The notes beneath the pieces were generated by a model. The model did not search any database and had not been told where the DNA came from. It saw only the letters and a list, made by a program, of their open reading frames with translations. From a virus, in the IMG/VR virus record IMGVR_UViG_3300042465_002671, positions 1 to 29,668 of that record: a stretch of DNA of 29,668 nt, one strand, 5' to 3'. Position numbers and translations under genes: made by a program. Of the stretch, positions 12,661-21,494 are shown piece after piece (positions within the stretch are counted from its first letter, which is position 1; the number at the start of each line of letters is the position of its first letter).

Positions 12661-12690
12661 TTGCAATTTGCCAAAAATCAATTATATTTG
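12661..12690 (+). promoter_or_regulatory. Promoter P2, apparently leaderless
   Basis: TTG at 12661-12663, 19 bases, TATATTTG at 12683-12690. The ATG of the HTH gene begins at 12695, only 4 bases later, so the mRNA would start at or next to the start codon. The -33 element extends to TTGCAATTTGC as in P1. Confidence 0.8.
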
Positions 12691-12694
12691 CCAC

Positions 12695-12901
12695 ATGACA
12701 AATAGAGAAGCATTAAATGAAATTTTTAAGTTAGACAACGGGACTTTGGCAGAGAAGTTAAAGTCCCCTTATAACACCATAGCATCTTGGAGATTCAAAC
12801 ATCACCGAGGAGACTTATCTTTGGAGAAGGAAATAGAACTCATAAGTAAAATGAATTACCAATTACAAAATACAATAAAATGGAAAAAAATAGCAAAGTA
12901 A
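12695..12901 (+). CDS. Putative HTH DNA-binding protein (Cro-like regulator candidate)
   Basis: 68 residues from ATG 12695; the TTG at 12668 is rejected because the promoter P2 lies in between. Residues about 15-45 (NGTLAEKLKSPYNTIASWRFKH) have the spacing of a helix-turn-helix: a helix with LAEKL, a short turn, and a second helix starting with NTIASWR. The C-terminal part (LSLEKEIELISKMNY) would pack against it. Being the product of an apparently leaderless early promoter, it may regulate the P1-P4 promoters that share TTGCAA. It overlaps the SSB-like gene by 22 bases. Confidence 0.6.
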   Translation: MTNREALNEIFKLDNGTLAEKLKSPYNTIASWRFKHHRGDLSLEKEIELISKMNYQLQNTIKWKKIAK

Positions 12902-13323: not shown

Positions 13324-13742
13324 TGGATACTAAAATAACAACCGAGAAAATCGTTGACACATTGATGGAGATGGTAATGGCAACGGAAAATGGAGACTTA
13401 AATCCAATAGATTTAAAAATTGCGATTAAGACACTTTTAGATACCTTGGAAGGCATTGATAAGCAAATCAAATCACAATTGATTAGCGAGGCTTTAAAAT
13501 ACAATAAGCAAGACTACAATGGCTACCATATTGATGTTGTAGATGGAGGAGGGAGATATTCATATGACCATATTCCTGATTGGGTAACCAAGAATGCAGA
13601 AATCAAAACTATTGAGCAGCAATCTCAAATTGCCTATAAGTCCAATGACATGATTATGATGACTGAGGATGGGGAGGTAATTCCAGCTGCTAAATTTAAT
13701 CCAACGGCAACTTATTTAAAATTGTCAAAATCTAAAAATTAA
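13323..13742 (+). CDS. Conserved phage protein of the replication region
   Basis: 139 residues, translationally coupled to the SSB-like gene. The N-terminal 55 residues are helical (LKIAIKTLLDTLEGIDKQIKSQLISEAL). The central part has YNGYHIDVVDGGGRYSYDHIPDW and a C-terminal hydrophobic-basic tail. Proteins of this pattern occur next to SSB-like genes in other Bacteroidetes phages, so it may take part in replication or recombination. No catalytic motif is visible. Confidence 0.65.
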   Translation: MDTKITTEKIVDTLMEMVMATENGDLNPIDLKIAIKTLLDTLEGIDKQIKSQLISEALKYNKQDYNGYHIDVVDGGGRYSYDHIPDWVTKNAEIKTIEQQSQIAYKSNDMIMMTEDGEVIPAAKFNPTATYLKLSKSKN

Positions 13743-13752
13743 TATATATTTG
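13722..13752 (+). promoter_or_regulatory. Promoter P5 upstream of the structured leader
   Basis: TTG at 13722-13724, 20 bases, TATATTTG at 13745-13752. The -7 element directly follows the stop of the previous gene. Transcription would begin at about 13757, at the left arm of the large RNA structure. Unlike P1-P4, the -33 element lacks the CAA extension. Confidence 0.65.
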
Positions 13753-13875
13753 TAGTGCGAATCATGTTTAAAAATATTAAAAATATTGGTAGGGGGATTA
13801 ATTCAAATCGTATCGATTTGGACATGGTTCGCACTTCTTTTCTCCCTACCTACAATATTATAGCGAACCGTGATT
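13750..13875 (+). ncRNA. Structured leader with mutually exclusive helices
   Basis: Helix A pairs AGTGCGAATCATG (13754-13766) with CATGGTTCGCACT (13823-13835), 13 bp with one G-U. Inside it, CAAATCG-TAT-CGATTTG (13804-13820) is a 7-bp hairpin. Helix B pairs AATATTGGTAGGGGGA (13782-13797) with the segment 13841-13859, crossing helix A as a pseudoknot. Helix C pairs CATGGTTCGC (13823-13832) with GCGAACCGTG (13863-13872), and excludes helix A. The GTG start at 13870 of the next gene is in the helix C right arm. This suggests a regulatory RNA switch or a structured replication element. Confidence 0.5.
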
Positions 13876-13889
13876 ACAAAAACACTTAA
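13764..13889 (+). CDS. Possible leader peptide ORF, 41 residues
   Basis: ATG 13764 lies 11 bases after the -7 element of promoter P5 and opens 41 codons that run through every helix of the structured leader. The stop (13887-13889) is 17 bases past the GTG start of the next gene. The product is basic with no known domain. Translation of this frame would melt the helices, so it may be a regulatory leader. It may also be a chance frame in a structured RNA. Confidence 0.3.
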   Translation: MFKNIKNIGRGINSNRIDLDMVRTSFLPTYNIIANRDYKNT

Positions 13890-14088
13890 AGACAAAAACA
13901 AGATTATTCTATCAATTCACGAATCCGTTGGTAATGGGTATGTAATCCATTTGGCTGACAATGGAATAGATGAGCCATACGATACAATGGCATATTCTTT
14001 AGATTATGAAGATATCGATGAAATAATAAAGCAACTTTCAATAGTTAAAGATTTAATAGGTAAGAAAAATGGCACTAAGATTCTTTGA
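13870..14088 (+). CDS. Small hypothetical protein with GTG start in structured RNA
   Basis: 72 residues. The frame is closed by TAG at 13861-13863 and has no ATG until residue 39, so GTG 13870 is the only reasonable start. The product has a beta-strand N-terminal half (KIILSIHESVGNGYVIHLADNG) and an acidic helix (YEDIDEIIKQLSIVKDLIGKK). It overlaps the replisome organiser by 20 bases. No known domain is seen. Its start codon is in the alternative helix of the leader, so its translation is probably controlled. Confidence 0.55.
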   Translation: MITKTLKDKNKIILSIHESVGNGYVIHLADNGIDEPYDTMAYSLDYEDIDEIIKQLSIVKDLIGKKNGTKIL

Positions 14089-14791
14089 TACAAATTTCTA
14101 TAAAAGTCCATTTGTAAGGGGCTTACAAGGGGCTTGTAAGGGGCTTTATAGCTTCATTATATGCGACTGCAAAGCAAGTGGTATTTGGGCTAAAGATTTA
14201 GAAGTGGCATCCTTGTATATTGGGTTTAAAATAACTGAAAAAGACTTTGATGTATTTTTAAAATTAGGTAAAGCAATTGACCTTAAAGATGGTAATTATT
14301 TCTTTCCTGACTTTATTGAACATCAATATCCAAAGGGACTAAGCGATAAAAACCCAGCACACATTAACATAATTTTGGACCTTAAAAAATACAATCTAAT
14401 AGATGAAAATTTAAAGGTACTCCCAAGCCCCTTGAAAGGGACTAAGGTAATGGTAATGGTAAAGGTAAAGGAAACGGTAAAGGAAACTGAAACTAAAATT
14501 GAAAAAACCCCTTTGGAGATAAAATTTGAAGAGTTTCTTAAATTTAGGAAAGCAAAGAAAGTACCAGTACTCCCTGAGTCGGTAGATGCACTTAAATCTA
14601 AGTTATGGAAACTGAGCAATAAAAATGAGCAAACTGCAATTGAAATTCTTAACGAATCGATTGCTAATGGATATCAAGGTATATTTGAACTAAAAAATAA
14701 TGGAAAACAATCAGTACTTAACAACAACAAGTCAGTCCGAGAAGAAATTCTTACCCGAGACTTCAATTCACTCCTTAACGGGAATAGTTAA
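14069..14791 (+). CDS. Replisome organiser / replication initiation protein
   Basis: 240 residues. The N-terminal 110 residues (NFYKSPFVRGLQGACKGLYSFIICDCKASGIWAKDLEVASLYIG) look like the winged-helix DNA-binding domain of phage replisome organisers. A low-complexity linker (residues 126-143, alternating Lys/Thr/Met with Val/Glu) is encoded by nine near-identical hexamers. The C-terminal part (PLEIKFEEFLKFRKAKK, then DALKSKLWKLSNKNEQTAIEILNESIANGYQGIFEL) is a helical DnaD/helicase-loader-like module. It would open the origin and load the helicase. The gene itself carries 11-bp repeats that could be that origin. It overlaps the next gene by 92 bases. Confidence 0.65.
   Translation: MALRFFDTNFYKSPFVRGLQGACKGLYSFIICDCKASGIWAKDLEVASLYIGFKITEKDFDVFLKLGKAIDLKDGNYFFPDFIEHQYPKGLSDKNPAHINIILDLKKYNLIDENLKVLPSPLKGTKVMVMVKVKETVKETETKIEKTPLEIKFEEFLKFRKAKKVPVLPESVDALKSKLWKLSNKNEQTAIEILNESIANGYQGIFELKNNGKQSVLNNNKSVREEILTRDFNSLLNGNS
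14114..14146 (+). repeat. Three tandem 11-bp iterons, candidate replication origin
   Basis: GTAAGGGGCTT, ACAAGGGGCTT, GTAAGGGGCTT follow one another without spacer (14114-14124, 14125-14135, 14136-14146). An inverted copy of the core, AAGCCCCTTG, is at 14425-14434. Eleven bases is about one DNA turn and not a codon multiple, so the repeat is unlikely to be selected only for protein. Origins inside the initiator gene are known from lambda O. Confidence 0.5.
14425..14434 (-). repeat. Inverted copy of the iteron core
   Basis: AAGCCCCTTG is the exact reverse complement of CAAGGGGCTT, the core of the middle iteron at 14126-14135. It lies about 280 bases downstream in the same gene. Confidence 0.45.
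14444..14497 (+). repeat. Nine hexamer repeats encoding the protein linker
   Basis: Successive hexamers AAGGTA, ATGGTA, ATGGTA, AAGGTA, AAGGAA, ACGGTA, AAGGAA, ACTGAA, ACTAAA. They start in frame at codon 126 and code for a flexible charged linker. Length change by slippage in units of two residues is likely. Confidence 0.8.
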
Positions 14792-19953: not shown

Positions 19954-20004
19954 ATGGAAGAGGATGAATACGATAACTGGTTCCCTGACCAAAGCATATT
20001 ATGA
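19954..20004 (+). CDS. Possible 16-residue acidic micro-ORF
   Basis: ATG 19954 opens MEEDEYDNWFPDQSIL and ends at TGA overlapping the ATG of the next gene (ATGA at 20001-20004). The coupling is typical of this genome, but a peptide this short may only serve translation of the following gene. Confidence 0.25.
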   Translation: MEEDEYDNWFPDQSIL

Positions 20005-21494
20005 AAATAGAAAAAATAAAAATTAATTTAATAAAACCTAATCCTAATAATCCAAGAATTATTAAGGATGACAAATTTGATAAATTGGTAACATCAATTA
20101 TTGAATTTCCAAAGATGCTTGAGATTAGACCTATTGTAGTAAATGATGACATGATTGTCTTAGGAGGTAACATGAGGTTAAAAGCTTGTATTAAAGCTGG
20201 ATTAAAAGAAGTCCCAATCATTAAAGTAAGCGATTTGACAGAGCAAGAACAAAAGCAGTTTATTATCAAAGATAATGTAAGCGGTGGAGAATGGGATTGG
20301 GATATGTTAACTAACGAGTGGAATGCTGAAGAACTTGATGCTTGGGGATTAGATGTACCAAACTTTGGGATACCATTAGAAGCCGAAGAAGATGACTTTG
20401 CAGTACCTGAAAATGGTATTGAAACGGATATAGTATTAGGGGATTTGTTTGAAATAGGCGAACACAGATTACTTTGTGGGGATAGTACGGATAGCGACCA
20501 AGTGGCAAAGTTAATGAACGGACAAAAGGCTGATATGGCTCATAATGACCCACCTTACGGAATGAAAAAAGAAAAAGATGGAGTTCTTAACGATAATTTA
20601 AATTATGCTGATTTGCTTGATTTTAATAGGGAATGGATAGATACTCAGTTTATGAACCTAAAAGAAAATGGTAGTTGGTATTGTTGGGGAATTGACGAGC
20701 CATTAATGGATATTTATAGCGAAATATTAAAGCCATATATAGCAGAACAAAAAGCAACATTTAGAAACTTAATTACTTGGGATAAAGGTAATGGTCAAGG
20801 GCAAAATTCAGAAAATACAAGAAGCTATGCAATAGCAGATGAAAAGTGTTTATTTGTAATGATGGGTGTACAGGGTTTTAATAACAATCAAGACAACTAT
20901 TTTGATAAATGGGAAATAATTAGAATTTATCTAGAACAAGAAATAAAAAAACTAAATGAAACTGATGGGAAAATAGCTACCGCTTTGGGATATAAAGATG
21001 GCAGAACAGTAAATCATTGGTGGAGTAAATCACAATGGGCGATGCCTACTGAAAATAATTATTACAGTTTAAGAGAATATGCAAAAAGTAAAAACATAGA
21101 TGCTTTTAAAAAAGAGTATGAAGAAATTAAAAAAGAGTATGAAGAAATTAAAAAAGAGTATTATTCTACACGAGCATATTTTAATAATACCCATGATAAT
21201 TTCAATAATGTTTGGAAATTTGATAGGCATATAAGAAAAGGAGATGAAGGTGGACACGCTACACCTAAACCAATACCTTTATGTGAAAGAGCAATTAAAT
21301 CAAGTTGCCCAGATGATGGATTAGTTTTAGATGTGTTTCTTGGTTCTGGTTCAACAATGGTAGCTTCACATCAACTTAAACGCAAATGTTACGGAATGGA
21401 ATTAGACCCTAAATACTGCCAAGTAATAATAGACAGAATGAAAGCATTAGACGCAACTTTAATAATAAAAAGAAATGGCATACGACAAGACTAA
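20001..21494 (+). CDS. ParB-like domain fused to DNA methyltransferase
   Basis: 497 residues. Residues 1-115 are a ParB/Srx-type domain (NPNNPRI and GGNMR at 55-59, the GEHR-like box). Residues 145-480 are a DNA methyltransferase of the type with motif IV first (NDPPYG, 182-187) and motif I last (DVFLGSGST, 444-452). DPPY points to N6-adenine or N4-cytosine. The middle region (about 300-390) has GYKDGRTVNHWWSKSQWAMPTE, a probable recognition module, then KKEYEEI repeated (370-387). It may protect phage DNA from host restriction. It overlaps the small terminase by 20 bases. Confidence 0.8.
   Translation: MKIEKIKINLIKPNPNNPRIIKDDKFDKLVTSIIEFPKMLEIRPIVVNDDMIVLGGNMRLKACIKAGLKEVPIIKVSDLTEQEQKQFIIKDNVSGGEWDWDMLTNEWNAEELDAWGLDVPNFGIPLEAEEDDFAVPENGIETDIVLGDLFEIGEHRLLCGDSTDSDQVAKLMNGQKADMAHNDPPYGMKKEKDGVLNDNLNYADLLDFNREWIDTQFMNLKENGSWYCWGIDEPLMDIYSEILKPYIAEQKATFRNLITWDKGNGQGQNSENTRSYAIADEKCLFVMMGVQGFNNNQDNYFDKWEIIRIYLEQEIKKLNETDGKIATALGYKDGRTVNHWWSKSQWAMPTENNYYSLREYAKSKNIDAFKKEYEEIKKEYEEIKKEYYSTRAYFNNTHDNFNNVWKFDRHIRKGDEGGHATPKPIPLCERAIKSSCPDDGLVLDVFLGSGSTMVASHQLKRKCYGMELDPKYCQVIIDRMKALDATLIIKRNGIRQD
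21108..21161 (+). repeat. 21-bp tandem repeat in the methyltransferase
   Basis: Two exact 21-bp units (21108-21128 and 21129-21149) and a 12-base partial third unit encode KKEYEEI, KKEYEEI, KKEY. The units are identical at DNA level, so the expansion is recent. It lengthens a charged helix in the target-recognition region. Confidence 0.9.

Follow-up and report, generated by a model that had tools for sequence, protein, structure and literature searches.

A candidate RNA switch with crossing helices in the leader of a phage replication operon, and leaders of similar design in Bacteroidota phages

What might a strongly structured leader be doing between a promoter and a replication module? The question is raised by the window analyzed here, the whole 29.7 kb stretch of a virus record with Bacteroidota-type promoters, in which a sequence-only reading had seen an attenuator, a translation-coupled riboswitch-like device or a structured origin element. 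Bacteroidota promoters follow the consensus -33 TTG / -7 TAnnTTTG, and by its match to this consensus a plus-strand promoter is predicted at 13722-13752, with the -33 TTG at 13722-13724, a 20-nt spacer and the -7 box TATATTTG at 13745-13752; the transcription starts of this leader and of its relatives were placed in the same way. The next gene on the plus strand (13870-14088, 72 aa) begins with GTG at 13870-13872 and has a near-identical copy in L002/L004 as its sole homologue support, while a protein family search with its product matched none. It is followed by a gene for an O-like replication protein (14069-14791, plus strand; PHROG 678, E = 2e-10). The window has no DNA-level match to known phages, a Rep-protein search across genome contigs gave zero confirmed relatives, and integrase is absent among the scanned proteins of this phage, whose record is possibly incomplete. 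Elsewhere in the window, a second -7 box TATATTTG ends at 12690 and an ATG 4 nt on opens a 68-aa frame (12683-12697), a predicted near-leaderless gene start, and an N6/N4 DNA methyltransferase fused to a ParB N-terminal domain is encoded at 20001-21494.

The leader element, on the plus strand throughout, begins at the putative 5' end of the transcript with segment A5' (13754-13766), which lies at the same promoter-relative position in related elements and includes the ATG of a leader open reading frame. A5' pairs with A3' (13823-13835) over 13 bp including one G-U, so that the helix first proposed for 13757-13766 and 13823-13832 exists and extends further. A second helix, B, crosses the first; of the pairing claimed for 13782-13797 and 13841-13859, the 10-bp core between B5' (13788-13797) and B3' (13841-13850) stands, and the outer AATATT pairs only across a 3-nt bulge with little gain. 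Between B5' and A3' sits the expected internal hairpin at 13804-13820, with 7 bp (13804-13810 with 13814-13820). Segment C (13863-13872, GCGAACCGTG) is a second A5'-like copy across the GTG start and, as had been noted, pairs with 13823-13832 over 10 bp with one G-U, which makes A3' the predicted switch strand, with A5' or C as its partner. The leader frame likewise runs through the element as described, from ATG 13764 to TAA 13889 (41 codons), and stops 20 nt past the GTG. From these pairings, A5' and the start region of the next gene are predicted to compete for A3', with B crossing A and holding a pseudoknot. Because only 5 nt separate the 13-bp helix A from B3', the complete pseudoknot may be strained, and the whole of B perhaps does not form together with A.

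To compare this architecture with chance, we used a scanner for two crossing helices that scores summed stacking energy. The window element ranks first among crossing-helix pairs in the entire 29.7 kb, at -52.0 kcal/mol. Shuffles of the whole window (n = 20) gave a mean of 0.05 pairs at ≤ -42 and none at ≤ -46, and among 3000 local dinucleotide shuffles none reached the score of the window element, the best being -38.1; the pseudoknot-free fold of the element alone has z = -2.4. Segment C was assessed separately, and none of 500 shuffles of the downstream DNA matched its quality. Phage DNA (1.34 Mb, both strands) yielded about 10 elements at ≤ -36 and 4.0 Mb of shuffled DNA yielded 0, frequencies that are rough because the elements are defined by the scanner that found them. 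Shuffling only the leaders behind promoter boxes left 0.4 per data set at ≤ -36 and 0 at ≤ -40, and a natural-sequence control of bacterial contigs (2862 promoter-like boxes versus 2641) gave two weak matches at ≤ -36 and none at ≤ -38.

Relatives at the same locus provide the test that the sequence-only reading had called for, namely compensatory change in the paired bases. In addition to a near-identical element on the L002 contig, the sister phage L010, whose upstream gene is 95% identical and whose promoter is nearly identical, has different sequences at this locus, yet every part still pairs, A and B over 13 bp each, C over 10 bp and the hairpin as well, and C again lies over the start codon. 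This replacement of whole helices with pairing retained is strong evidence for an RNA structure as judged from sequence comparison, although it is not readable as base-by-base evolution. The two leader peptides differ almost entirely and the frame is open in both, so a conserved leader peptide, the rival that had been named for the 13764 frame, is ruled out.

The same promoter-anchored design, in unrelated sequences, occurs in at least six other phages, with up to three elements per genome. The order promoter, A5', B5', A3', B3' and gene was found upstream of replication-gene homologues in L008, L013, L028, L007, L017 and L054 (immediately before rep in L013 and L054), and scans of whole contigs added L168-16302, L168-6298, L174-9360, L177-10934 and L177-16558. 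Every related element is preceded by the same -7 box, and across phages the elements lie always behind a Bacteroidota-type promoter and ahead of a start codon; where one phage has a second or third copy, the gene that follows encodes a helicase, an HNH endonuclease or a product of unknown function. An AGGGG motif in B5' was discarded as a conserved feature, as it is on the opposite B strand in L172, L168-16302 and L017. The third leader element of L168 (minus strand, 6298) has an extra crossing 10-bp helix, TTCCGGTGAA/TTCACCGGAA, between A and B. Free-standing HNH/NUMOD4-type endonuclease genes follow the leaders at L177 10934, L177 16558, L184 13307 and L187 15215, as if homing endonucleases travelled with their own promoter and leader. 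On the phage contig L006, long imperfect palindromes with GTTAG-type ends, resembling integron attC sites, occur at 2951, 3332 and 4024.

Isolated phages also host such leaders. The Flavobacterium phages hattifnatt9-1 and snusmum6-1 each have three elements, placed ahead of genes for a helicase and an HNH endonuclease and ahead of a small gene, and Croceibacter phage P2559S has one; in phages 1/32, FpV9 and phi10:1 the scans turned up nothing convincing. In the isolated-phage forms, A takes the shape of a loop-loop (kissing) interaction of 6-8 bp that joins the start-proximal hairpin to the apical loop of hairpin B; behind B come a U-run and then the start codon of the gene. One Flavobacterium-phage element, aligned across five phages that represent three distinct sequences, has 31 pairs with 100% of cells paired and 6 pairs changed on both sides; none of 500 shuffles equaled this, and sliding the partners by 1-3 columns left zero double changes. 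These double changes, together with the L010 replacement, are the compensatory changes that had been sought, and across related phages the predicted design is retained under complete sequence turnover. Searches against Rfam gave no gathering-score match, C4 included, and only chance eukaryotic matches appeared at E values up to 10.

We lean, somewhat beyond even confidence, toward an RNA switch that acts in cis from the 5' leader of the phage replication operon, and the best reading of the pairings is a shared leader core that would be joined either to a terminator with its U-run or, in the window form, to sequestration of the start codon by C. As for the sign and trigger of switching, we infer that the GTG start, which lies within C as the sequence-only reading had it, is open by default because A would be made first during transcription and is stronger than C (-19.1 versus -15.4 kcal/mol; -26.3 and -18.2 for the extended A and C), leaving the gene on. 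Occupation or removal of A5' would let A3' pair with C instead and so shut the GTG start, the most likely occupant being a ribosome initiating the leader frame at ATG 13764 inside A5', and the closed gene would be off or reliant on coupling from the leader frame. Relatives whose helix B is followed by a U-run would combine this core with an intrinsic terminator, and there it would work by transcription attenuation. The attenuator or translation-coupled switch put forward at the outset is supported as a class, since the architecture survives even where all helices have been replaced in a compensatory way, promoter and start codon always flank it, and a leader frame is over-represented in a subgroup.

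A pure transcription attenuator, in which the crossing or kissing helix A stabilizes hairpin B so that it works as an intrinsic terminator just ahead of the gene, with C and the leader frame incidental and expression dependent on anti-termination, is a minority possibility that we nonetheless take seriously. In most relatives a U-run sits immediately behind B3', ahead of the ATG (for example L174-1966, L172, L017, hattifnatt 13307 and P2559S), which makes these members look like intrinsic terminators directly before the gene, and in the Flavobacterium-phage forms A and B fold together because presenting stems hold both loops. Against this, a proper U-run is missing in the window, where TACAATATTATA follows B3' and the terminator hairpin with its U-run is not present, and likewise in L175/L010 and L168-11833, and in the window C is significant. 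C is weak or missing in most relatives; it reaches significance (p ≤ 0.002) in the window, L010 and L174-9360, the L010 copy having a different sequence that still pairs and the L174-9360 copy extending over 14 bp, and these three convincing members have poor U-runs. To judge from the sequences, the favored switch seems to combine a common structural core with outputs that can be swapped, the split between them being a trend over few cases.

Activation by leader translation, with the ribosome opening an inhibitory structure and the pseudoknot aiding the next start to turn the gene on, is a reading by analogy with the ColIb-P9/IncB leaders that we consider improbable. The pseudoknot does precede a replication module, and a leader frame that overlaps the next start is over-represented, running through 10 of the 11 E-type elements (the long-A group, window included) against about 1.6 expected as the sum of per-element shuffle probabilities over these eleven. 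However, no leader frame was found in the Flavobacterium-phage forms examined, no antisense RNA is evident, and the gene downstream is often other than a replication gene. Given the leader frames of the E-type group, ribosomes may set the proposed cis-acting switch in this subgroup, where ribosome movement is a plausible trigger without being a family-wide requirement; since C is weak or absent in most members and the Flavobacterium-phage forms lack a leader frame, neither is essential to the family.

A trans-acting immunity RNA in the manner of P4 CI or P1 C4, in which a processed RNA with A3' would act on A5' and C and shut the replication operon, is one of the less likely readings, and we give this analogy very little credence. 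It is favored by the order of the three segments upstream of replication genes, as in P4 seqA-CI-seqC (PMC4825925), and is weakened because the element-bearing Flavobacterium phages are reported virulent (PMC7077304) and most members lack C; moreover, one phage holds up to three mutually unrelated elements. A DNA-level element, with operator or replication-origin repeats merely resembling RNA helices, is fainter still: direct and inverted repeats do lie around the promoter upstream of rep, but crossing inverted repeats with G-U pairs, the fixed promoter distance and the U-runs suit RNA, and the repeats are unlike between elements of one phage.

A structured origin, the third of the original interpretations, is likewise less likely, and an origin-specific role was dropped because elements also stand ahead of genes for a helicase, for HNH endonucleases and of unknown function, with two or three such elements in a single phage. 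Iteron-like repeats sit instead inside the replication gene, where AAGGGGCTT occurs in three direct copies with 11-bp spacing at 14116-14146 and, about 300 bp beyond, an inverted AAGCCCCTT at 14425-14433; the codons of both are conserved at the DNA level, beyond the protein, across divergent replication-gene homologues. These iterons, rather than the leader element, are the likely origin signal. The absence of any conserved sequence leaves a conventional ligand-binding riboswitch unsupported. HDV-like ribozymes, which share the strand order, are expected to have a P4, a catalytic core and conserved sequence, all of which are missing. Also set aside were a type III toxin-antitoxin RNA (tandem repeats and toxin gene both missing) and a frameshift signal (no canonical slippery heptamer found in frame).

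Beyond the window, we put at about even the chance that these leaders form a widespread Bacteroidota-phage family of sequence-free switches, each with a start-anchored pseudoknot or kissing core and, as its output, a terminator or else a clamp on the start codon, in which complementarity alone is selected and several mutually orthogonal copies can therefore coexist per genome. Because its sequence turns over completely, such a family would escape covariance-model searches and hence discovery of the Rfam type; what gives it away here is topology, promoter anchoring and gene position. It is not described in the literature we found, a search that lay largely outside subscription sources, and the predicted structures point to a widespread, as yet undescribed means of turning phage genes on and off. 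Bacteroidota hosts are mostly without Shine-Dalgarno control. If the proposal is true, it shows how their phages time replication, helicase and homing-endonuclease genes, and hattifnatt9-1 and snusmum6-1, being in culture, make the family testable.

Among known systems, the rep leaders of ColIb-P9 (IncI-alpha) and IncB plasmids contain a repY/repZ pseudoknot switch with a leader frame and exclusive pairings ahead of the replication gene. The window is similar in its long-range pseudoknot, its exclusive pairings and its 41-codon leader frame, which lie two genes before the rep start region. Unlike the plasmid leaders, the phage elements have no antisense RNA found (a clear opposing -7 box, a possible antisense promoter, occurs in only one, L008), cover the start codon directly with C in the window form, keep their design without sequence conservation, also precede non-replication genes and are borne by Bacteroidota phages. 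Work on the ColIb-P9 and IncB leaders appears in the reference list of PMC10724649. With P4 CI, which lies upstream of the replication operon, and with P1/P7 C4 RNA, the window, L010 and L174-9360 share a middle segment complementary to both upstream and downstream segments, and the window has a replication operon downstream; the phage elements differ in their crossing helix B, their cis-specificity, their several unrelated copies per phage, the frequent lack of C and of any Rfam C4 match, and, for the Flavobacterium-phage forms, their occurrence in phages reported as virulent rather than temperate.

Plasmid rep attenuators of the pT181/pIP501 type comprise a promoter, a leader with a 5' pre-emptor and a terminator, and then the replication gene. 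Promoter, leader and replication gene follow in the same order in the phage elements, and a G+C-rich hairpin with a U-run lies between promoter and gene in most relatives, though not in the window; the phage elements differ in that an opposing promoter, from which an antisense RNA could be made, is not consistently present, that many lack a U-run, and that A and B can co-fold as a kissing complex. Riboswitches with exchangeable expression platforms differ from the phage elements, which have neither a conserved ligand-binding sequence nor an Rfam match, and resemble them in joining a single structured core to an output by terminator or by start-site sequestration.
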